Origin: a virus
IMG/VR virus record: IMGVR_UViG_3300024262_000092
Span: 1-39,783 of that record
Reading direction: 5' to 3' (one strand)
Length of the DNA: 39,783 nt
A program made the translations under genes and the position numbers. The notes beneath the pieces were generated by a model, which ran no database searches, was not told the DNA's origin, and saw only the letters and a program-made list of their open reading frames with translations. Positions 22,515 through 39,780 of the stretch are shown here, one piece after another (position 1 is the stretch's first letter; every line of letters begins with the position of its first letter).

Positions 22515-23507
22515 TTATCCCCATGCTCCGATAGCGGCAGAGCCCAAGGCCCCGCCTACTCCAAGAACAGTTTGCCACCATTCAGGTTTATTTTCCTGAA
22601 CAAGATCCATTTGATTCGCCCAATCGCCTTCCTTCGCCCAATAGCTGAAGTCAAGCTGATCCGCTCTCAGGTCAAGATCCCCGAGCCCAAGTTCTCTTTT
22701 TAGATCAAGCTCGGCCATAGTAGTAGCCATCCGTGACCTTGCCCCTATTTCAGCCGCTTTCAGGTTGGCTGAAGCCATCGCTCTTGTTGCGTTCGCTCCG
22801 GAAGCAGCGGCATTTTCCGAAGCCTGTGCCGCTCGTACTCTTGCCCTGGTATCAGATGCCGCCATTGCCCCTTTTTGAACCCTGTCTGCCAGGGTGTTCT
22901 GTTGTCCAAGTCTGGCCATTGCATCGTTGGCCTCAATACCGGCCAATGTGCGGGCCTGTCCTTCCAGCATCCGGCCGCCTGATTCTCCGGCTACAGTAGA
23001 CCGCTGCATACCGCGGCCAAACAAGTCTTCCAATAAGGCGTCTTTTTCGGTAGTGAATACTCCCTGGGCCTGGAGCATTTGAGCTTCACGAGCCTTGGCA
23101 AAAGCAGCCAGGGTTTGAGCGTCTAACTGAGGAAGTCCTTCACGCATTAAAATTGCTTCCAGGTCGGCATTAGCCCCGGGACCTGTACCGAAGACATTCC
23201 CCCCGCCCCCCAGGCTCATATCAACACCAGTTCCTCCACCTAGAACTTTTTTCCAATATTCCTCATCAAAACCTTGTCCAGCTACCGGAGTGTTGGCTCC
23301 TGCCCCTGCATTTCCCCCGGCAGCGGCAGCAGGATCAGAAGGCGCTCCGGTGTTTTGGTGGGTAACTCCATCGGCGTCAGTCCAGGTTGACAAGGAAGGA
23401 TATGTCGTCTTGGTTCCTGCCCCTTGTCCGGCCCCAAATTGCGCCTGGAGTTGATCATAGACATTGTTATTTTGAAATTTGTTCAGCAGGTCAGCATAAA
23501 CGCTCAT
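22515..23507 (-). CDS. Internal virion protein, Gly/Ala-rich, 330 aa
   Basis: It has a Gln- and Gly-rich first third (FGAGQGAGTKTTYPSL, GGNAGAGANTPVAGQG), then a long Ala-rich helix (about 110-290; QTLAAFAKAREAQMLQAQG and beyond), and a hydrophobic Gly/Ala C-terminus (TVLGVGGALGSAAIGAWG) that could insert into membranes. First of the three candidate ejection proteins after the nozzle. AAGGAGTTTATA precedes the ATG, which overlaps the nozzle stop by one base. Confidence 0.6.
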   Translation of the reverse strand: MSVYADLLNKFQNNNVYDQLQAQFGAGQGAGTKTTYPSLSTWTDADGVTHQNTGAPSDPAAAAGGNAGAGANTPVAGQGFDEEYWKKVLGGGTGVDMSLGGGGNVFGTGPGANADLEAILMREGLPQLDAQTLAAFAKAREAQMLQAQGVFTTEKDALLEDLFGRGMQRSTVAGESGGRMLEGQARTLAGIEANDAMARLGQQNTLADRVQKGAMAASDTRARVRAAQASENAAASGANATRAMASANLKAAEIGARSRMATTMAELDLKRELGLGDLDLRADQLDFSYWAKEGDWANQMDLVQENKPEWWQTVLGVGGALGSAAIGAWG

Positions 23508-26500
23508 TATAAACTCCTTGCTCTTTTCCCGGTTAAAGGGGTGATCTCAAAATATTGAGATTCCAATTCAAATGCTTCCGCTCCGGCATTAACCACATCA
23601 ACCTGCAATCTTTTCCATCGCCTTCTTCCTGTTATCAGTTTTCTAATAAACAAGGGAAGCCCGGTTGCGGCTGCCCCGGTGTCTATCGTATAAGTATGTA
23701 CCGGTGTGGTGACTCCATCATAAAGTAAATTCACAGTTAAGGTAAGGGCCGCTGTTCTTTTTACTACCTCTATCCCCCAGCGTAATATCTCTTTGCGTCG
23801 ATCCGGAACCTGTAAATCAAACTCTTTGGTTTTGATCCTGGTGGTAAATGGAGTTCCTGCGTCTGTCCAAACTGATTCGTCCTGTTTGTATAACTTGTCG
23901 CTTCCGATATAAAGTTCATTAACTCCATCTACTTCCACAATAGCAAAAGCAGTTCCGACGATCGCGCCGGTAAAGACTGTCCACTTCAGCTTCCCATTTA
24001 AACTGTCTTTCATATCCAAGACATAAGTTTTATCTACAACTCCGTCATTGTCAGTATCTATGGAAATCCAATATTGAGATTTCTTTGGCCAGTACAAGGC
24101 GGGGAAGCGCAGGTTTGATAATTTCATTCCCCGCAAATCAGATATCTTCTTGGAGAGAAGGACTGTTTCAAAATCCCCCAGCTTTTCAGCCGATCCCAGG
24201 GTTGTCAATCCTTCACTTGACAGGAAAAGCAGGTCATCTAAAACGCTTTTAGTACTCTCACCGGAGACAGCACCGGAATTTTTAGTAACAAGTTCAAGCG
24301 ACCATTTTGAATCTGCGGTATTTGGAACCCCGGCCAGGATCCGATAAATATGCTTCCGTTTGAAAATGACTAACATTCCCTTATGCGCTTCCATCCCACT
24401 AGCAATATCGCCATCGTCAGGGAACACATCCAGAGAACCGGCCAGGGTGTCGGTAAAATCAGTTCCGTCTCCCAGCTTGGAATAAAAAACGCTATTCCCG
24501 GCCAAGATAAAAAGACGATGATTCCACACTTCCAGTTGAGTAGCCGCAACCTCCTGTTCCGGAAAGTTTTGAACCTCTTGTAAACTACTGGTTTCACCAT
24601 CCCAATAAACGACCTGAGAGTAGCCAAATTTCGTCACCACGCCATCATCGTCTATAACCTGGGGGGATACCCCATGTACTCCAAATAAAACGCCGTCAAG
24701 CACGCCCCATCGCCAAAACCCGTCAACAGGGATCTTTAACGCGCCGTTAATTACTTCAAAGATACCAGAGCCGATTTCAGTCAGGACGTGATTTCCTTCA
24801 GTGACAACAAGGGCATCCACCCCTTGTTCGTTTTTAAGCTGGAAGATTGAGGATACAATACTTCGGAAAGGCATACCAACTACCCGTAACGCAGTAATTC
24901 TGTCAATGGTAGAACAGGGGCAATAAATATCAAACCCTGCCGCATCAACTAACTTACATCCAGCAAGGTTGGCAGAATCAACAAGGTCATCGAGCAGCAC
25001 CGGAGCGGTCGGATCGGAAACGTCATATAGGGAAATTTTGGTTGCCCCTGGCACTCCAACCCATAGAATTTTATCAACCGGAACATACCTGATTCCATAA
25101 GCCCCGGTTAGGCTGGCAATCTCATTGTCAAATACTGGCGCAGTCACATCGCTTATGTCGTAAATCCTTACTGAATTTCCGGCATTTGTTGTGGCATACA
25201 GGTATGTGCCATCTGAATCACACCTCATCGCTGGCTGGCTAGCATCATTTAAGGAACCGATCAGGTACGGAGAAAAGGGAATTTTCACATCCCATACATT
25301 TATATAGTTCGTTCCAATTCCGCACAGGTAATCAGCATCAAGAAAAACCAGGCCATCAAGGGCAGCATATTTGGTTGCTTTGTGAAGGGCAGCTACTAAG
25401 GTTATTGATCCTGGCAGCTTGATATCAATTACGTTTAGATACCCGGGAGCAGAAACATAAGCAAATTCTTCTTTGGCATCTACCACTACCGCATTACATG
25501 AAGTGAGGCTGACTGTCGTGATAAAGCTCATTTCAGTGATACCAAGAGGATTAGAAACATCGTAGACCACAACTCCGTTATAGGTTTTGCTGGCTGCGAT
25601 AATATACTTTCCACCACCGAACCAGGCTAGATCCACCGCACCGTTTAATTTTGTTGCGTCTGTTATTTGACCATATTGTTTGAGAGAAGCTGGCTCTCTT
25701 ATATCAATGATTGAAATTGCATCGCTGGTTTTTGAAGCAGCAGCAAGAGTCTGTCCATAATGTTTCACGCACCAGACTTCATCAAGAGGTACATTTGACA
25801 GTTCCCATTTGAGAGTGAAATTTTGAACTACTTCCGCACGAATGATAGTAACGAGAGCAGAAATATCTGTAGAAAAAACGTAGCCATCTTTAAGATGAAC
25901 ACCAGCCGGAGAAGCCAGGTTTACAGCATCAACGTAAACATATTCCTGAATCCAGGGCCAGGAACTTACGTTTATAAGGACAAGGGCATCGCTTGAACCG
26001 CTTCCGATATATAAAGTATCTGTATTGGCATCGTGCCAGGGCCATTCATTTGCCCGATCCATTAACGGAAAAGAAGCAGCTTTTTTCACTACTGGCAAAA
26101 GAGGATCTGATAAATCCCATTCAGTTACAATTGAAGATGCCACATCGAAGCCCCAGATAGTTGTGTAATCACGCTGTAGGATGAATTTGTTGGCCCGGGC
26201 GGTTGCCACATCATTTCCCAGGATCGGAGCAGCCGGGTCGCTGATATCAAAGGTTGACAGAATGGTGGCACTGGAAGCGTATAAGATTTTTTCAACAGGA
26301 TTTATCTCTGCCCTCGAAGCCTGGCCTGTCCAGGTATATTTCCCAACTTGCGTAGGCGTATCATTTTCAACACTTATGATCAAGATATTTTTTGATGAAG
26401 CCGATCCATTGGCAGTAGCTACATAGGGCAAGCCATCATCACCAAAGTAGAAACCGCATCCACCACTTCCACCGCCATCAGAGAAGGCCACAGCGATAGG

Positions 26501-28021
26501 ATCATCGGAAGAATCTCTCAAAACAGCGATCTTTCCGGTTGAACTATTGAAACTGTAAATCACTATTCCGGCTTGTCCACCAGCGTTTAATGATACCCAG
26601 GCATAAAGCCTGGTCATGGCAGGATTCCAGCAAACATCCACTACATAATCGTAAGTATATCCACCTGCTACAAAATAAGAACCAGGATTGTCATAATCAA
26701 CTTCTTTAATAATGGCAGGATCTTCCCTGTCAAAAACCCGAATAACCTTAACAGCACCATGTTCATAAGCAACAACCCATCTGTCATCAGGCGTTGCCCT
26801 GGAAACATAACCAAAAGCAGAAGTGTAAGCATCAGATGTAACCGTTTGGAAAGGCAAAGGTACATGAAGTTTCACGCACAGCAGGTAATCATCGGCTGCA
26901 CTTACCATGAACAAATAATCATCTACCAAAACCGCATCTATGATCTGGTCAAGTCTCCCTGGAATCATAATATCGGAAATGATTACCGGGGCCGTGGGAT
27001 CGGCAATGTTGACCATCGTTAAAGAATCGCTCCAGTAGCATGGACAAATAATAATATTGCCTCTTTTATATGTCCAGGTATCTATCTTGTTCAGCCTGAC
27101 CGCATCCACCAGAGTAGCCGTGATCGTCACTGTTACTTCATCGGAAGCGTCCAGCACGATAAAGGTATCGTCGGTTGCGGAAAGCATATAGACATAATTC
27201 TCATCAGCCTGAACCGGGCCTACGTCATTGAGAGCCACAGCGTCAAGATGGCTTACCACCAGGGAAATTGCAGCCGGATTTGAAACGTCGAATACATGAA
27301 GCTCGTCAGTTCCCTGGTTGGTCTGGTAAAGACGGTTCGTATCAGGCACATGGGCGATCCATTTGCCTCCGGAGTGAGCAGTAATTTTATTGCTTTCGCT
27401 GATTCCTGTTCCAAGGTCGGATATATCCAGCACAACCAAAGAGCCATGAGCCCCGGCATCATCATTGGCACAGTAGAGGTAATCACCATCACGAATGATT
27501 TGGTGTATCCAATCAAGATTGGTAGCGTCAGTGTGCTTTCTTACCCATGTTGAGTTTGCCGGATCGGAAATATCGAACACATGGACGCTACCATTCCAGC
27601 GATCTGCAACCAGCAGGTAGTCACCATGTTTCACGGCATCCACAGGGTAGACCATCGCTCCATCTTTGCAGGAGCCTTTAAATATAGGCTTTTCAGGATC
27701 AGTGATATCCACGATAAAAACAACATCGGTTGCTCCGGTGTCACAGACAAAAAGCAAGTTACTGTCAGCGTCATAAGCCAGTTTAGTTGGGGAATCAATT
27801 TTGATATTATTGATCATCCCTTTAAGGACAATGCTTGTGGCGGCCGAAGAAACTGCGGTCATACCTGGCCTTGTAGTCAACTCTCCCGACTTGTTATATT
27901 CCAGGTTTTCGAGCAACACAAATTCATTATCAGCAATATCGTTAGGCGGCTGCGCGGTATTCATTCCTCCGCTGACGTCCTGTAAATTTATCGACTGATA
28001 TTTTACATTCTGATCACTCAT
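23507..28021 (-). CDS. Tail nozzle/hub protein with inserted LVIVD beta-propellers, 1504 aa
   Basis: The first 65 residues (SGGMNTAQPPNDIADNEFV, LENLEY, GELTTRPGM) and the last 450 (SIVSSIFQLKN, HRLFILAGNSVFYSKLGDG, DDGDIASGMEAHKGMLVIFK, KHIYRI) match the podovirus nozzle or P22 gp10-like hub. Between them (about 70-1050) lie some 18 repeats of the form h-h-h-h-D-I-S-D-P-x-x-P (FDISDPAN, FDVSNPAA, FDISDPAAP, YDVSDPTAP), that is LVIVD-type propeller blades. Nozzle proteins usually have about 600-700 residues. The insert could bind the host surface. ATGA overlap with the upstream gene. Confidence 0.8.
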   Translation of the reverse strand: MSDQNVKYQSINLQDVSGGMNTAQPPNDIADNEFVLLENLEYNKSGELTTRPGMTAVSSAATSIVLKGMINNIKIDSPTKLAYDADSNLLFVCDTGATDVVFIVDITDPEKPIFKGSCKDGAMVYPVDAVKHGDYLLVADRWNGSVHVFDISDPANSTWVRKHTDATNLDWIHQIIRDGDYLYCANDDAGAHGSLVVLDISDLGTGISESNKITAHSGGKWIAHVPDTNRLYQTNQGTDELHVFDVSNPAAISLVVSHLDAVALNDVGPVQADENYVYMLSATDDTFIVLDASDEVTVTITATLVDAVRLNKIDTWTYKRGNIIICPCYWSDSLTMVNIADPTAPVIISDIMIPGRLDQIIDAVLVDDYLFMVSAADDYLLCVKLHVPLPFQTVTSDAYTSAFGYVSRATPDDRWVVAYEHGAVKVIRVFDREDPAIIKEVDYDNPGSYFVAGGYTYDYVVDVCWNPAMTRLYAWVSLNAGGQAGIVIYSFNSSTGKIAVLRDSSDDPIAVAFSDGGGSGGCGFYFGDDGLPYVATANGSASSKNILIISVENDTPTQVGKYTWTGQASRAEINPVEKILYASSATILSTFDISDPAAPILGNDVATARANKFILQRDYTTIWGFDVASSIVTEWDLSDPLLPVVKKAASFPLMDRANEWPWHDANTDTLYIGSGSSDALVLINVSSWPWIQEYVYVDAVNLASPAGVHLKDGYVFSTDISALVTIIRAEVVQNFTLKWELSNVPLDEVWCVKHYGQTLAAASKTSDAISIIDIREPASLKQYGQITDATKLNGAVDLAWFGGGKYIIAASKTYNGVVVYDVSNPLGITEMSFITTVSLTSCNAVVVDAKEEFAYVSAPGYLNVIDIKLPGSITLVAALHKATKYAALDGLVFLDADYLCGIGTNYINVWDVKIPFSPYLIGSLNDASQPAMRCDSDGTYLYATTNAGNSVRIYDISDVTAPVFDNEIASLTGAYGIRYVPVDKILWVGVPGATKISLYDVSDPTAPVLLDDLVDSANLAGCKLVDAAGFDIYCPCSTIDRITALRVVGMPFRSIVSSIFQLKNEQGVDALVVTEGNHVLTEIGSGIFEVINGALKIPVDGFWRWGVLDGVLFGVHGVSPQVIDDDGVVTKFGYSQVVYWDGETSSLQEVQNFPEQEVAATQLEVWNHRLFILAGNSVFYSKLGDGTDFTDTLAGSLDVFPDDGDIASGMEAHKGMLVIFKRKHIYRILAGVPNTADSKWSLELVTKNSGAVSGESTKSVLDDLLFLSSEGLTTLGSAEKLGDFETVLLSKKISDLRGMKLSNLRFPALYWPKKSQYWISIDTDNDGVVDKTYVLDMKDSLNGKLKWTVFTGAIVGTAFAIVEVDGVNELYIGSDKLYKQDESVWTDAGTPFTTRIKTKEFDLQVPDRRKEILRWGIEVVKRTAALTLTVNLLYDGVTTPVHTYTIDTGAAATGLPLFIRKLITGRRRWKRLQVDVVNAGAEAFELESQYFEITPLTGKRARSL

Positions 28022-28371
28022 AGAATTGCCCCTGTTAGATCCATGACCACTATTTTAGCTCCATCAAAATGAAGCGAATGTCCAATTCCGAGAGAGAGAA
28101 CTTTAGGGATTAAATATCGCGGGTTCCCGCCATTGCCAGGATCAAGGCATAGAGTTATATCAACCGCGGCAACGTGTTTATTCACCAAGATTATTGAAAC
28201 GATTGAAACGGCAGCAGAGGCAGTATAAAGAACGCTCGTCAGGGTAGTCCCAAGGACACCAGAAGCCAGCCTGGCAAAGGTTCCTCCAGCCAGACCGCAT
28301 ATTGTGTAGTCAACGACAGCATCTACGCTGGCCCCACCCTCAATCACATCTGTGTCATTCAAGCAAATCAT
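28018..28371 (-). CDS. Small virion-associated protein, 117 aa
   Basis: It is beta-rich and mildly hydrophobic (VLYTASAAVSIVSIILVNKH, PRYLIPKVLSLGIGHSLHFD), like small phage proteins linked to fibers or capsid spikes. It lies between the fiber-like and nozzle genes. AGGAGAACCAGG precedes the ATG. The precise role is unknown. Confidence 0.55.
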   Translation of the reverse strand: MICLNDTDVIEGGASVDAVVDYTICGLAGGTFARLASGVLGTTLTSVLYTASAAVSIVSIILVNKHVAAVDITLCLDPGNGGNPRYLIPKVLSLGIGHSLHFDGAKIVVMDLTGAIL

Positions 28372-28381
28372 CCTGGTTCTC

Positions 28382-28849
28382 CTATAAAGTTCCTAACACC
28401 GCAGCAACTTCAAACGTAGCCAAGGCAGAGGCGTGTTTACCATCTAACGTATCAGCATCAAGTCCATTTCCAGGACCAGTAAGCAGCCATCCCAAAGCGA
28501 TTTTACCAGCGGCATCAGCCAGGGGGATAGTAGTCGCAGCCGGAGTAGCAGAGATAGGCTGAAGGTCGGTTACTTGGGCCTTGGTGTGGGTATGAATAGC
28601 TGTAGCGAAAGCCGTTGCTTCAAGACCATCCAAAAGATCAGCATTAAGCCCGACAATTAATTTCCCAGCGGCCTTAATCCCAATAAGAAACGGGGCTACT
28701 TCAAGCGGATTGAAGGTATGCTGAACGGTAATTTCACGAGCGATAGCTTTATGCACGTACTGAAGATGACCGTCAGTATCACGATTAAGGGTATCGTCAT
28801 GATTAATCGTCTCTCCGGCTTGCTGTGCGTATTCTCTTTTTCGGGACAT
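28382..28849 (-). CDS. Short tail-fiber-like protein, 155 aa
   Basis: GLNADLLDGLEATAFATAIH followed by THTKAQVTDL, and GNGLDADTLDGKHASALATF, are the D-x-L-D-G-x-x-A repeats typical of phage tail fibers and receptor-binding trimers. The protein is far shorter than most fibers, so it may be an anchor or a chaperone-like cap for a receptor-binding part elsewhere, such as the nozzle insert. It lies between the neck adaptor and a small virion gene. Confidence 0.7.
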   Translation of the reverse strand: MSRKREYAQQAGETINHDDTLNRDTDGHLQYVHKAIAREITVQHTFNPLEVAPFLIGIKAAGKLIVGLNADLLDGLEATAFATAIHTHTKAQVTDLQPISATPAATTIPLADAAGKIALGWLLTGPGNGLDADTLDGKHASALATFEVAAVLGTL

Positions 28850-28858
28850 ACCTTCTCA

Positions 28859-29923
28859 CTAATTTCTGAATCTCCCTGGCGGCAATCTTACAGGATTGAA
28901 TGAGCCGCGATTAGGGAGATCCGTTGGTTGAAATCTGCTAAATGCACCCCGGGGATGATTATAAGAATGTTTCAAACTCTTACGATGGCCCAGATACATG
29001 CTGTATGTACGGTCAAAACTCTCCCATTCCCTTTCGTGCCGGTGAGCATAAGCCAGGGCGCCTTCATGAAGCAAACTCAGAAACTCATTGGGAACCGGGA
29101 TGCTGGCGATAGTCCTGATAGAAACGTTGTCTACCGTTCCATCAAAATCAGCAGATGGTGTAATTGAAAAAACCACAGCTCCAGAGGCCGCGGCCTTAAA
29201 GTTACCACTACCGGAATCCGTAAACTCTTTTGTCGCTCCGGTTAAGAAGATAAACTCTCCGTCAACATCAAAGGTTACGGATCCAGCGGTCCTCCCGCTG
29301 ATAGTAAAGCTGATCTGATAGGTAATCCCTTCCGCTACTGTTACGTTCTGACTCAGGGCATCGACAAAAGTTAGATCGTGCTGGGCCGCACCGGCAGCCC
29401 AAGTCCAGTTTGTTGCTGTCCAGGCTGACAGGTCCGCAGCAAATTCACCGTCTGTTACCAGTTCGCTTCCCAGGGGAGCATTGCTTAATCGTGTTGGCCT
29501 CCCTACACAGTTAAGCTCGATAACCTTAATCCCGTTTGGTATGGGGAAAAAGCCTATCTTGCCGGTAACTGTAGTTGGATTGAAGGCGTCATGGTAAAAA
29601 TACCGTGGAGTGCCTGTATCTTCCATATTGTAACTACCGGCAAATAGATGATCTTTGGAACGATATTCAATTATCTCCCCTGTCGTCTGAATCCTGGCTG
29701 AAGATATATCCCTTACATCTACCGAGAGATCATAAGTTCTTTGCAAAGCTACGGTAGTTATTTCCTGAAGGATATAATTAAACCTCCAGTCCATGTCATC
29801 CCCAACCTCATCAAAAACCCTTTGAATCCAGCCATAGGCAAGAGAAAGCGCATCGGCGTCAGTTGAATCTTCCCCAAGTTCATCCAAAACTTCAGCCGCT
29901 AATTGATTCAGTGTTTTAGCCAC
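28859..29923 (-). CDS. Neck adaptor (gatekeeper) with jelly-roll-like insert, 354 aa, GTG start
   Basis: Residues 1-145 (LNQLAAEVLDELGEDSTDAD, VGDDMDWRFNY, VIELNCVGRPTRLSN) and 274-354 (IPVPNEFLSLLHEGALAYAH and a basic tail) resemble the adaptor below the portal of podoviruses. About 152-271 is an inserted domain (GSELVTDGEFAADLSAWTAT, VDNVSIRT) that looks like a carbohydrate-binding jelly-roll module. Start is GTG at 29923 behind AAAGGATAG; no ATG is near. Together with the nozzle, this is a second neck protein with an inserted domain. Confidence 0.75.
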   Translation of the reverse strand: MAKTLNQLAAEVLDELGEDSTDADALSLAYGWIQRVFDEVGDDMDWRFNYILQEITTVALQRTYDLSVDVRDISSARIQTTGEIIEYRSKDHLFAGSYNMEDTGTPRYFYHDAFNPTTVTGKIGFFPIPNGIKVIELNCVGRPTRLSNAPLGSELVTDGEFAADLSAWTATNWTWAAGAAQHDLTFVDALSQNVTVAEGITYQISFTISGRTAGSVTFDVDGEFIFLTGATKEFTDSGSGNFKAAASGAVVFSITPSADFDGTVDNVSIRTIASIPVPNEFLSLLHEGALAYAHRHEREWESFDRTYSMYLGHRKSLKHSYNHPRGAFSRFQPTDLPNRGSFNPVRLPPGRFRN

Positions 29924-31139: not shown

Positions 31140-32090
31140 TTAGGTAATGCCAGTGAGAACCGCCAGACGATTACGATTCATGGTAAGCAGGTTTCCGAAC
31201 AGCAAAACCTGGCTGACCTTGGAATCCTGGTCATCGGGACGCTGGAAGGGAGTTGCGGTAAAGTACTTGCCTTTACCTACGGCCATTTTCAGGTACTCAC
31301 TGTTAAGAAAGTACATGTAGCCGGATGTGCAATCCTCATCGTACACCATTGGAATACCCTTGAACTCAAGGTTCTGGAACCCGGCATCGCCAAGCTTGGC
31401 GTTTGTCCTGGTGATATCATTATTCGCCAGGGTAAGGGCCTCATAGTCCTCATAAACCGTCTGGGTAGTAATAATGAGATCGCAAGCAGACTTGCCTTTG
31501 CGAACCGAATTGACCATATTGCGCATGGAAGCGAGATCGAGCGCGCCGGATTCATCCAGCCAAACGTTACGCCAGATGGAGTCAGCGTTGGAATCAATAC
31601 CCCCATAAGTTGACCAGGCAGTACCTTCTTCAACTATCAGGGCAAGGCCGGTAAGATCCTTCCCGCCGTTTCCGGTTCCGTCACTGAACATCTGTTCGTT
31701 GATCTCGTTACGCATTGAGATTTCGAGTTGTTTCACCTTGCTTGTAAGCAGGGAAACGATTTTGGTTTTGCTCCCACTGTTCTGAAATTCCTCCCGGCCA
31801 TTAATGGTCACGGAACCTGCGATCTGTTTCCAGTCAACTTCACAGGCTGAAATTCCTTCCTGGGGAGAGATATCAAGGATATCCCATCCAGAGTAGGATT
31901 TAACCGTTGTGTTTTCACCGAGCAGCAATGGCTCGACAAGTGTTTCACCACCATCGCGCTCTTCAAAATATCCTCTCTCTTTGAGCAGATAAATCAAAGC
32001 CTGCTGGCCAGTGATGTTATCAGCCAAGGTTGGACGATAGTTTTTGAGCGTAGTCGCGACGATTTGATCAAAAGAGGCGTTAAAGGCCAT
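31140..32090 (-). CDS. Major capsid protein, HK97-fold, 316 aa
   Basis: Of the expected length for a podovirus capsid without a long N-terminal delta domain. It has the order of such proteins: an extended N-arm, VDWKQIAGSVTINGREEFQN, a helical MRNEINEQMFSDGTGNG, DLIITTQTVYEDYEALT, FQNLEFKGIPMVYDEDC and a closing NLLTMNRNRLAVLTGIT. It follows the scaffold and lies upstream of the decoration-like gene. AAGGAGTATCAAA precedes the ATG. Confidence 0.88.
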   Translation of the reverse strand: MAFNASFDQIVATTLKNYRPTLADNITGQQALIYLLKERGYFEERDGGETLVEPLLLGENTTVKSYSGWDILDISPQEGISACEVDWKQIAGSVTINGREEFQNSGSKTKIVSLLTSKVKQLEISMRNEINEQMFSDGTGNGGKDLTGLALIVEEGTAWSTYGGIDSNADSIWRNVWLDESGALDLASMRNMVNSVRKGKSACDLIITTQTVYEDYEALTLANNDITRTNAKLGDAGFQNLEFKGIPMVYDEDCTSGYMYFLNSEYLKMAVGKGKYFTATPFQRPDDQDSKVSQVLLFGNLLTMNRNRLAVLTGIT

Positions 32091-33346: not shown

Positions 33347-35257
33347 TTACTGTACCCCTCCTAATGCTCCCATAAGTCCTGACAATACGTTTCCTGGCCC
33401 TCCTGCCGGTTGTGCCTGCTGCGCCATGGGAGAAGGCGGCATTACCGGATTTGGGTTCTGTGATGGCGGGGCCTGGGGATTAAACCCACCAGGAGCCCCT
33501 GGAGTTATTCCCGGCTGTTGCCCGGCCTGGGCCTGGGCGATCGGAGCGTTTACTGTCGCGGCCGCGGGGAACCACCTTTGAACATCTTCCAGGCTTTCAA
33601 ATTTACTCAGTACCCATTTGAACAACTCAGTCCACTCTACCGGCACACCGGCCTGCATAAGAATCTGCATATTGGCCGTCATGATTTGAAGTATCTGAAT
33701 AGCCTGTTGCCGCTCAGTTACTTCGTCAACCATTTCAGTACTGGTTGCCTCAATATCAATATCAACTTCAGCCTGGATATCTTCCCTGTTCCAGGTTTCC
33801 CAATAGTATCCAGTCGGGCCAACAATTTTAACCACATCAGTAGTAACCCAATTGGCCTTCATGTGCTGATTAACTTTACGTCCCACTTTTTCAATGAACC
33901 GGTCGAACTGTTCAACCCTGTCTTCAAGCTTCAGTCCATATAATTTTGTCCTGGCTTGAACTTCTGTAGCCGTGGTGCGGGATGGAAGGTTGCCGCCCCG
34001 GGCCATTTCATCAGATCCAATAAGCTCCCGAATATCCTGCTTGATAATTCCTTCGATATTATATTCGTCGGAACTCATAGCCGCTTCCTGGATAGGTTTA
34101 ATGGCGTCGTGATCCAAAACCTTGATAATGGTTCCGTCCGCGCCTTCCTGCAATTTGGTAAGCTCAGATTCGTTTACATCATCAGTAGCCGTATACTTGC
34201 GGTTAAACCGGCGCCGGTGCTGAAACATGGCGGTACGGATCCGGTTCAGTTCATACTGCTGGTCTTCAATAGAGGCCGGTAAGCCGAGAGCGTAAGGTTC
34301 CTCCGGAACGGGGATAAATTCATACCAGTCATAAGGAAACCCTTCAAGGTAATCATACGGCCAGGTTTCTTTCTCGATCAGCGGGATATGAACTCCGTGT
34401 GCAAAGAAGAAATATTTTCCGCTGCGCTTATCCCATATTTCAAAACAGACGATCCTGGTTAAATCTCCGTATTCATCGGCGTCATTAGAAAGCCAGGTTA
34501 GGCCATCGTCAGAAATTTCATCTTTTAATACAGAGTCTATTCGGGAAGGCTCAAACTTTCCTTCCTGGATAGCCTTTATTGCAGCTTTGGAATATCTTTG
34601 GTTTTCAATAATGTCCTGTAGGGGAAGGAACATCATTTCTCCGCACCATCTACCGGAATCAAAATCCTGTTCCGGAGCTTCCGGATCGAAGACCATCATA
34701 AACGGGCTTACCCGACGAATCCAGGGGGCCTGCTTTTTAATATAATCCCGATATTCAATTCTCCCTGTAGATGGAATCTTGTAACTCTCATTCACTTCCA
34801 GGGTAAAGCCTGACTTCATAACGGCGTGTCCGATAATAATGCCATCGAGCGCACACTTACGGGCTTGCTTCTGCATGTCATATTCACCCCAGGAATAATT
34901 CAATGTGGCCTTTTGAATCTTGGCACTCACATCAAATTCAGGGCGTTTGGCTTTAGCGTTGAACTTGGGACGTTTACGGATTAGAAATGGGAGCATGTTC
35001 AGGCAGGAACTTCCGGTAATATTTACCGTGATTTCATCATTGGCCAGATCGGAAGAAAGAGTATCACTGTCCTGGCTTAAAGCAGACCAGTGTTTCCCCT
35101 TGTATAAGTTGAGATATCGCTTCCAGGCTTTATCTCCATTCCAATGTTGCCTTCGATAAGTTAGAGCCCGGTCAAATCTATGCTGCCAAAACTCTCCAGC
35201 ATCCTCCCCGGTGGTCGGTTCCCTTTGGTAAAGGGTGTTGTCAGGAGCTTTTTTCAT
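33347..35257 (-). CDS. Portal protein, 636 aa
   Basis: It matches podovirus-type portals: an N-terminal helical part (FWQHRFDRALTYRRQHWNGD), the wing region (NDEITVNITGSSCLNMLPFL), DGIIIGHAVMKSGFTLE, a stem-helix stretch (MARGGNLPSRTTATEVQART followed by KLYGLKLEDRVEQFDRFIEK) and a Pro/Gln/Gly-rich tail (about 565-636) that is likely disordered. It lies between the large terminase and scaffold. Confidence 0.9.
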   Translation of the reverse strand: MKKAPDNTLYQREPTTGEDAGEFWQHRFDRALTYRRQHWNGDKAWKRYLNLYKGKHWSALSQDSDTLSSDLANDEITVNITGSSCLNMLPFLIRKRPKFNAKAKRPEFDVSAKIQKATLNYSWGEYDMQKQARKCALDGIIIGHAVMKSGFTLEVNESYKIPSTGRIEYRDYIKKQAPWIRRVSPFMMVFDPEAPEQDFDSGRWCGEMMFLPLQDIIENQRYSKAAIKAIQEGKFEPSRIDSVLKDEISDDGLTWLSNDADEYGDLTRIVCFEIWDKRSGKYFFFAHGVHIPLIEKETWPYDYLEGFPYDWYEFIPVPEEPYALGLPASIEDQQYELNRIRTAMFQHRRRFNRKYTATDDVNESELTKLQEGADGTIIKVLDHDAIKPIQEAAMSSDEYNIEGIIKQDIRELIGSDEMARGGNLPSRTTATEVQARTKLYGLKLEDRVEQFDRFIEKVGRKVNQHMKANWVTTDVVKIVGPTGYYWETWNREDIQAEVDIDIEATSTEMVDEVTERQQAIQILQIMTANMQILMQAGVPVEWTELFKWVLSKFESLEDVQRWFPAAATVNAPIAQAQAGQQPGITPGAPGGFNPQAPPSQNPNPVMPPSPMAQQAQPAGGPGNVLSGLMGALGGVQ

Positions 35258-37741: not shown

Positions 37742-38380
37742 TTACGGATGCCCCATTCCCCGGTTCCAAATTCCTTCAGAACCAATCCTGAATGGAGATC
37801 CACCACCACCACCACCAGGCAAAGGCCAATCACCAGCTTCAAAATCATCGTACCACGGAAACGCCCCACCAGCCGAACTGCCAGTTAAACCAGCTTTTCC
37901 AGTTGTGTATGTAGTATCAGAAGTAGAGATTTTTTCAACTCCATTGATATAAACTTTCTGCCCTACTCCAGCAATACACTCCAGGCGAACAATATCCCCA
38001 TTTGAAGGCATAGCAGCAGCACCAAGAAGCGTGCCTGTAGTATAGTAATAACTCCAATCAACTGCCTTGATTAACTGCATATTCGTGTAGTCAGTACCTT
38101 GAAGTTTAAGTATGTAACCATTAACCTTGTTTACAGTAGACCCCTGAGAAAGTAAACAGCCAAACCCATGTGATACCGCCCCAAATGTAACCATTTTTAA
38201 TTGAGCATACATTCCAGCAGCAGGATTAAAAGCAGTAGGATAAACAAATCCGTCTTTATTAGAGACTAAGCATTGGCATTTGTTTGAACTAATTATAGCA
38301 AAATGAGTCCCAACTTCAGTCCAGTTTGCCCCAAGATCAGCAGCGTCCGCCCTGTTAAAATCATCAGTGAATACAGCCAT
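37742..38380 (-). CDS. Lectin-like (concanavalin A fold) virion protein, 212 aa
   Basis: DDFNRADAADLGANWTEVG at the N-terminus is typical of LamG/concanavalin A-like beta sandwiches, and NGYILKLQGTDYTNM and the GDIVRLECIAGVGQKVYING segment fit its later strands. A Gly linker (PLPGGGGGGSP) leads to a short C-terminal tail (IGSEGIWNRGMGHP), perhaps a virion anchor. It may bind host sugars. GGAGTAAATC precedes the ATG. Confidence 0.65.
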   Translation of the reverse strand: MAVFTDDFNRADAADLGANWTEVGTHFAIISSNKCQCLVSNKDGFVYPTAFNPAAGMYAQLKMVTFGAVSHGFGCLLSQGSTVNKVNGYILKLQGTDYTNMQLIKAVDWSYYYTTGTLLGAAAMPSNGDIVRLECIAGVGQKVYINGVEKISTSDTTYTTGKAGLTGSSAGGAFPWYDDFEAGDWPLPGGGGGGSPFRIGSEGIWNRGMGHP

Positions 38381-39654: not shown

Positions 39655-39780
39655 GTTAGCTATAATGTTCGACACGTTGAACATCAAAAACAGGGCCAAC
39701 AGGGCCAAAACAGGGCCGAAAAACGCAGTTATCAAGGCGGGGCCTGTAAATAATATCAAATCCTATTTTCCCTATTTTCT
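39655..39780. repeat. Terminal redundancy, right copy
   Basis: Identical to 1-126 with one differing base after the match (39781). See the left copy: circular closure or short terminal repeats. A TATAAT lies in it (39660-39665, equal to 6-11), without a strong -35. Confidence 0.9.

Follow-up and report, generated by a model that had tools for sequence, protein, structure and literature searches.

In the short-tailed phages that have been studied in detail, host recognition is the task of tail-attached fibres or spikes, from which a signal must then reach the nozzle gate. The locus described here raises the question of whether a nozzle protein can carry a large, potentially host-reading module of its own. 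The window, the whole stretch of 39,783 nucleotides analysed (IMG/VR record IMGVR_UViG_3300024262_000092), has a direct terminal repeat of 126 bp at both ends (1-126 and 39655-39780), indicating that it represents a complete genome. Its genes are met in the order portal (33347-35257), capsid (31140-32090), SU10-type adaptor (28859-29923) and then nozzle, the last being an uninterrupted open reading frame of 1504 aa on the minus strand (23507-28021). The original prediction, made from the sequence, held that the ends of this protein form one nozzle and that its middle is an array of LVIVD-like propeller blades. A scan of genome contigs with the capsid protein yielded no relative.

The first point to settle was whether the frame is a single genuine gene. 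LVIVD repeats were originally known from surface proteins of cells (PMC2447325), and a cellular LVIVD gene might have become joined to a nozzle gene by assembly or recombination. The same 1504-aa frame is, however, present in a second contig, IMGVR 3300009149_000570, which differs from the window at four scattered positions in 15.6 kb, two of them inside the nozzle gene, and the GC content of insert and flanks is identical (0.449/0.450). Both observations make an assembly error unlikely, and a chimera was rejected on these grounds. Moreover, nozzle sequence lies on both sides of the insert in a single frame, and the start codon shares an ATGA with the stop codon of an upstream 117-aa gene, an overlap typical of translational coupling. 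An artefact is thus very improbable, and the claim that this is one gene rather than two joined in error was borne out. The equal GC content likewise gives no support to a recent import of the insert.

A profile HMM was built from 23 nozzle homologs, leaving the window out. It matched window residues 8-62 (profile positions 15-69) at 16.1-16.7 bits, compared with 8.1 bits for the highest-scoring of 5000 shuffled versions of the N-terminal 90 aa and 8.3 bits for the best non-nozzle N-terminus among ∼1900 ORFs. Residues 1159-1445 scored 106 bits, and the C-terminal part alone reached up to 111 bits. When residues 1-66 were joined to 1050-1504, a single continuous match of 128 bits was obtained (E 1.9e-38 at Z=1000). 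The gain over the 111 bits of the C-terminal part indicates that the ends constitute one continuous nozzle domain, as had been proposed. The N-terminal part (residues 1-63; 27833-28021, minus strand) contains the motif GG[LM]N...L.NLE...G...R.G and is expected, by analogy with T7 gp12, to provide platform strands. The nozzle core (residues ∼1052-1504; 23510-24868, minus strand), which also matches phrog_5107, is expected to hold the nozzle's own propeller and the C-terminal part of the platform; the corresponding core in T7, SU10 and crAss001 is a propeller of seven blades.

Other comparisons point the same way. Using tblastn, residues 1055-1504 retrieved proteins annotated as 'phage stabilization' or 'tail structure' from phages of Pelagibacter, Rhizobium, Pseudoalteromonas and others (23-32% identity), and a profile of the homologs only matched the solved Tail tubular protein B (TTPB) with an E value of 5e-12. 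The AlphaFold model of residues 1040-1504 is of low confidence (pLDDT 46, pTM 0.37, TM ∼0.33) and its shape is not readable in detail. A Foldseek search with it nevertheless gave podovirus nozzles as all 17 of the 17 best PDB matches (best E 5e-11), among them Pa223, P22 gp10, VP1, SU10, Pam1, T7 gp12, Sf6 gp8, E1004 and Kp9; the crAss muzzle was retrieved as well. The identity of 23507-28021 as a podovirus nozzle is strongly supported, and by comparison with its homologs the protein would be hexameric and close the DNA channel. In phrog_5107 and in a number of public phage entries, nozzle-family proteins go by the name 'amidase' or 'dimodular nonribosomal peptide synthetase', labels that look wrong.

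Between the two nozzle parts lie ∼990 residues (∼64-1051) on which Pfam LVIVD (PF08309; repeats of ∼42 aa) scores 48.4 bits against a cut-off of 20.2 (E 5.7e-13), and which are built of regular blade units, in agreement with the predicted LVIVD-like array. Counting strands that end in a D[VI]S[DN]P-type turn gave 21 blade units, spaced by 40-64 aa and mostly by 44-49 aa. Judged by this spacing, the array is three predicted seven-bladed propellers (3 × 7). The original estimate of about 18 blades in two or three propellers was thus right in allowing three propellers and too low in blades. Propeller A (residues ∼64-388; 26858-27832, minus strand) is delimited by the Pfam match, by blade spacing and by an AlphaFold model with 28 strands over residues 66-385 (block pLDDT mostly 60-87). 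Propeller C (residues ∼741-1051; 24869-25801, minus strand) matches phrog_22523 at residues 766-1011 and has 28 modelled strands over residues 743-1046 (block pLDDT mostly 75-95); the models of A and C are both of good confidence. The intervening propeller B (residues ∼389-740; 25802-26857, minus strand) is more divergent, aligns poorly and is modelled with low confidence; its seven blade units follow from spacing alone, and it shares 48% identity with C over 33 aa. To judge from the strand order, it is the N-terminal strand that closes each propeller. Identity between propellers A and C is 22% (E 1e-11), and the array is therefore not the product of a recent duplication.

Searches with the insert say little about its activity. 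Foldseek against PDB and BFVD returned general multi-propeller proteins alone, which do not indicate a function, and tblastn found no match among phage records. Pfam Lactonase gives a partial match (best stretch 66-154, E 3e-9), and propeller sialidases are known in phages, so that the propellers could be imagined as a nozzle-mounted enzyme (a depolymerase, a lactonase or another glycan-cleaving activity) that clears a surface layer before ejection. We consider this unlikely: the Lactonase match is also seen on other LVIVD proteins, no catalytic residues were identified in the insert, and a tandem of three divergent copies is more suggestive of binding repeats.

The exact position of the insert was explored by a join scan, in which scores remained alike from about 60/1050 to 116/1100. 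The junction is accordingly uncertain by tens of residues, since one LVIVD blade can replace the nozzle's own first blade in the match. Within this limit, the insert appears to come after the N-terminal platform strands and before the nozzle's own propeller, and, as read from the alignment, probably ahead of blade 1. The insert falls at profile position ∼70, as opposed to 165-175 for the extra sequence in the solved TTPB. At profile position 72 one homolog (L007) is longer by 38 residues, showing that insertion is tolerated at this site. In the SU10 nozzle, blades 1-3 point away from the channel and the chain coming from the platform enters at blade 1 (PMC9509320). By analogy, the array is expected on the outside of the tail.

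Ordinary homologs lack the insert. The 23 compared are ∼460-660 aa long, and their genes follow those for portal, capsid and adaptor, as in the window; in ∼55 phage records, tblastn matches to the nozzle span at most ∼1.85 kb. The check for homologs without the insert, suggested along with the original prediction, thus gave a clear answer, and both the reality of the propeller insertion and its absence from homologs are strongly supported. No stretch of the nozzle homologs was conserved enough for alignment-guided nozzle scans. LVIVD propellers were sought with a pattern for a pair of neighbouring LVIVD units at the DNA level, which was found in 41 viral contigs. None of these 41 loci is another nozzle with an LVIVD array; at L048, near a nozzle gene, the pattern had arisen by chance in a protein of low complexity. 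Several of the hits, in L057, L068 and L076, are viral proteins that also match tail fibres or tail spikes. Two large viral proteins, of 1297 aa (L061:4818-8708) and 2132 aa (L081:494-6889), each have three LVIVD blade clusters and fibre-like ends.

The surroundings of the nozzle gene were compared with those in a sister phage, IMGVR 3300031673_006477 (L010), whose portal and capsid proteins are 100% and whose adaptor is 99.4% identical to those of the window. After the adaptor, identity falls to 62% in the next gene and to 43% in the one after that, and a sharp divergence of the nozzle-side region is strongly supported. The gene at 62% encodes a short fibre-like protein of 155 aa (28382-28849, minus strand) with HTHTK and DADTLDG motifs and weak PHROG tail-fibre matches. 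The gene at 43% is the 117-aa gene that overlaps the nozzle start (28018-28371, minus strand); it matches residues 1-115 of a fibre-type protein of the sister phage (L010:12736-13701; E 2e-25). In the sister phage this protein runs on past residue 115, and the more than 200 further residues, with HIHAINHGI and FVAKSGGTFTGKLGIG, look fibre-type by eye and have no PHROG match, whereas its counterpart in the window ends at 117 aa and is followed by the nozzle gene. The sister contig stops before its own nozzle gene, and a scan with the 1117-aa protein, aimed at that nozzle from the other side, returned nothing.

The adaptor (354 aa, minus strand) belongs to the SU10_adaptor family (Pfam PF24175, E 3e-12). 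Before its last helix it contains a carbohydrate-binding-like beta-sandwich of ∼120 residues (residues ∼150-272, at about 29108-29476) that matches DUF642 (E 0.017) and phrog_30593 (E 1e-6); a short adaptor in another contig (L002) lacks it. Besides the nozzle, the adaptor is thus another ring protein of the tail to which a domain of surface type has been added. Further away, a 212-aa protein (37742-38380, minus strand) looks lectin-like by eye ('DDFNRADAADLGANWT') and has a weak PHROG tail match; it is 40% identical in the sister phage, while its downstream neighbours are 88-100% identical, which makes it a candidate for a further variable adhesin. No large fibre gene was recognised in the window. 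The lack of such a gene, as noted with the original prediction, therefore stands, the fibre-type counterpart ending at 117 aa, with the qualification that the 155-aa fibre-like protein, the adaptor beta-sandwich and the lectin-like protein remain as small candidate adhesins.

While the architecture of a nozzle with inserted propellers is well supported, its function has to be argued from context. As the best explanation, to which we give a probability of roughly 0.55, the inserted LVIVD array would be a main or secondary receptor-binding organ on the hexameric nozzle. The three seven-bladed propellers would be inserted after the platform strands, ahead of the channel-lining propeller's first blade, and a nozzle of six copies would carry 18 propellers in all, arranged round the tail immediately beneath the adaptor. 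With the chain entering on the outward side, as in related nozzles, the array would lie outside, where it could bind a host-surface polymer or protein. It would partly stand in for the tail fibre, of whose gene the 117-aa base is left, and its covalent tie to the gate protein could allow binding to be passed directly to gate opening. Both ligand binding and signalling to the gate are conclusions that we infer. Receptor binding is plausible in that it would fit the position of the array in a variable module and the recurrence of LVIVD propellers in phage fibres. Precedents exist for the two halves of the idea: the nozzle (TTPB) of Vibrio phage OWB binds the receptor Vp0980 (PMC7241545), and in the receptor-binding protein (RBP) of phage phi11 the propellers are the likely ligand-binding part (PMC4901313). 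A stronger version, in which the receptor-binding organ has moved from separate fibres into the gate protein and a ring of 18 propellers reads the host surface and opens the gate directly, is put forward tentatively and is rather doubtful.

Against receptor binding by the array it can be said that the small fibre-like and lectin-like proteins could do the binding, and that propellers are general scaffolds, common among proteins. The latter also favours the main rival, in which the propellers form a docking or scaffold collar that widens the nozzle and holds the 155-aa short fibre and the 117-aa base protein without touching the host. The dock for the short fibre of SU10 is an extension of nozzle blade 1, near the insertion point in the window, and the nozzle gene is immediately preceded by the two small fibre-like genes, of which the 117-aa gene overlaps the nozzle start. 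However, the ∼990 residues of the insert far exceed the docks of SU10 and T7, the fibre-like partners in the window are tiny, and the LVIVD propellers of other viral proteins belong to fibre- or spike-type proteins. A collar seems the less probable reading, if one worth keeping in mind. Less credible still is a weak adhesive decoration that binds mucus, matrix or particles and is dispensable for host-cell recognition. The adaptor beta-sandwich and the lectin-like protein are domain kinds that phages use in this way, but placement on the DNA gate and the loss of the neighbouring fibre-type continuation suggest more than decoration.

If the array is indeed a receptor-binding organ, such a nozzle would be a one-protein link from recognition to ejection. 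In the open-access papers searched, no description of a nozzle-LVIVD fusion was found. Within these papers, the idea that the arrangement is undescribed holds for the fusion itself, though the insertion of domains into nozzles is known at another site. Insertion before blade 1 would be a new site for added domains in the nozzle family, and LVIVD propellers, first known from cellular surface proteins, turn out to be used repeatedly in the tail proteins of viruses.

Compared with known systems, the joined ends of the window protein resemble the nozzles (tail hub or head-completion proteins) P22 gp10, Sf6 gp8 and that of Pam1 in size and, as far as the low-confidence core model can be read, in predicted fold, whereas these have 442-512 aa and no LVIVD propellers. 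T7 gp12 and the SU10 nozzle have the platform formed from both termini and the seven-bladed channel propeller that are expected of the window protein, and the family profile matches the solved TTPB; their extra domains, however, lie between blades 2 and 3, at the nozzle tip, or serve as a fibre dock, while the LVIVD array probably precedes blade 1. The crAss001 muzzle gp44 is likewise a nozzle homolog enlarged by inserted domains, which are proposed to touch the host surface, but its inserts are Ig-like domains and the crass fold, placed inside blade 3 as well as between blades 2 and 3. Beta-propellers are also found in the host-recognition proteins phi11 RBP (Gp45) and phiKZ gp131C; these are a trimeric fibre-like RBP and a baseplate protein rather than nozzles, and the phi11 propellers are five-bladed. 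LVIVD-repeat proteins (PF08309) and the viral LVIVD fibre and spike proteins, finally, share with the array the repeat unit, the seven-bladed propellers and, in L061 and L081, the tandem clusters, yet they are stand-alone surface proteins or fibres, in contrast to the window array, which lies within a nozzle.
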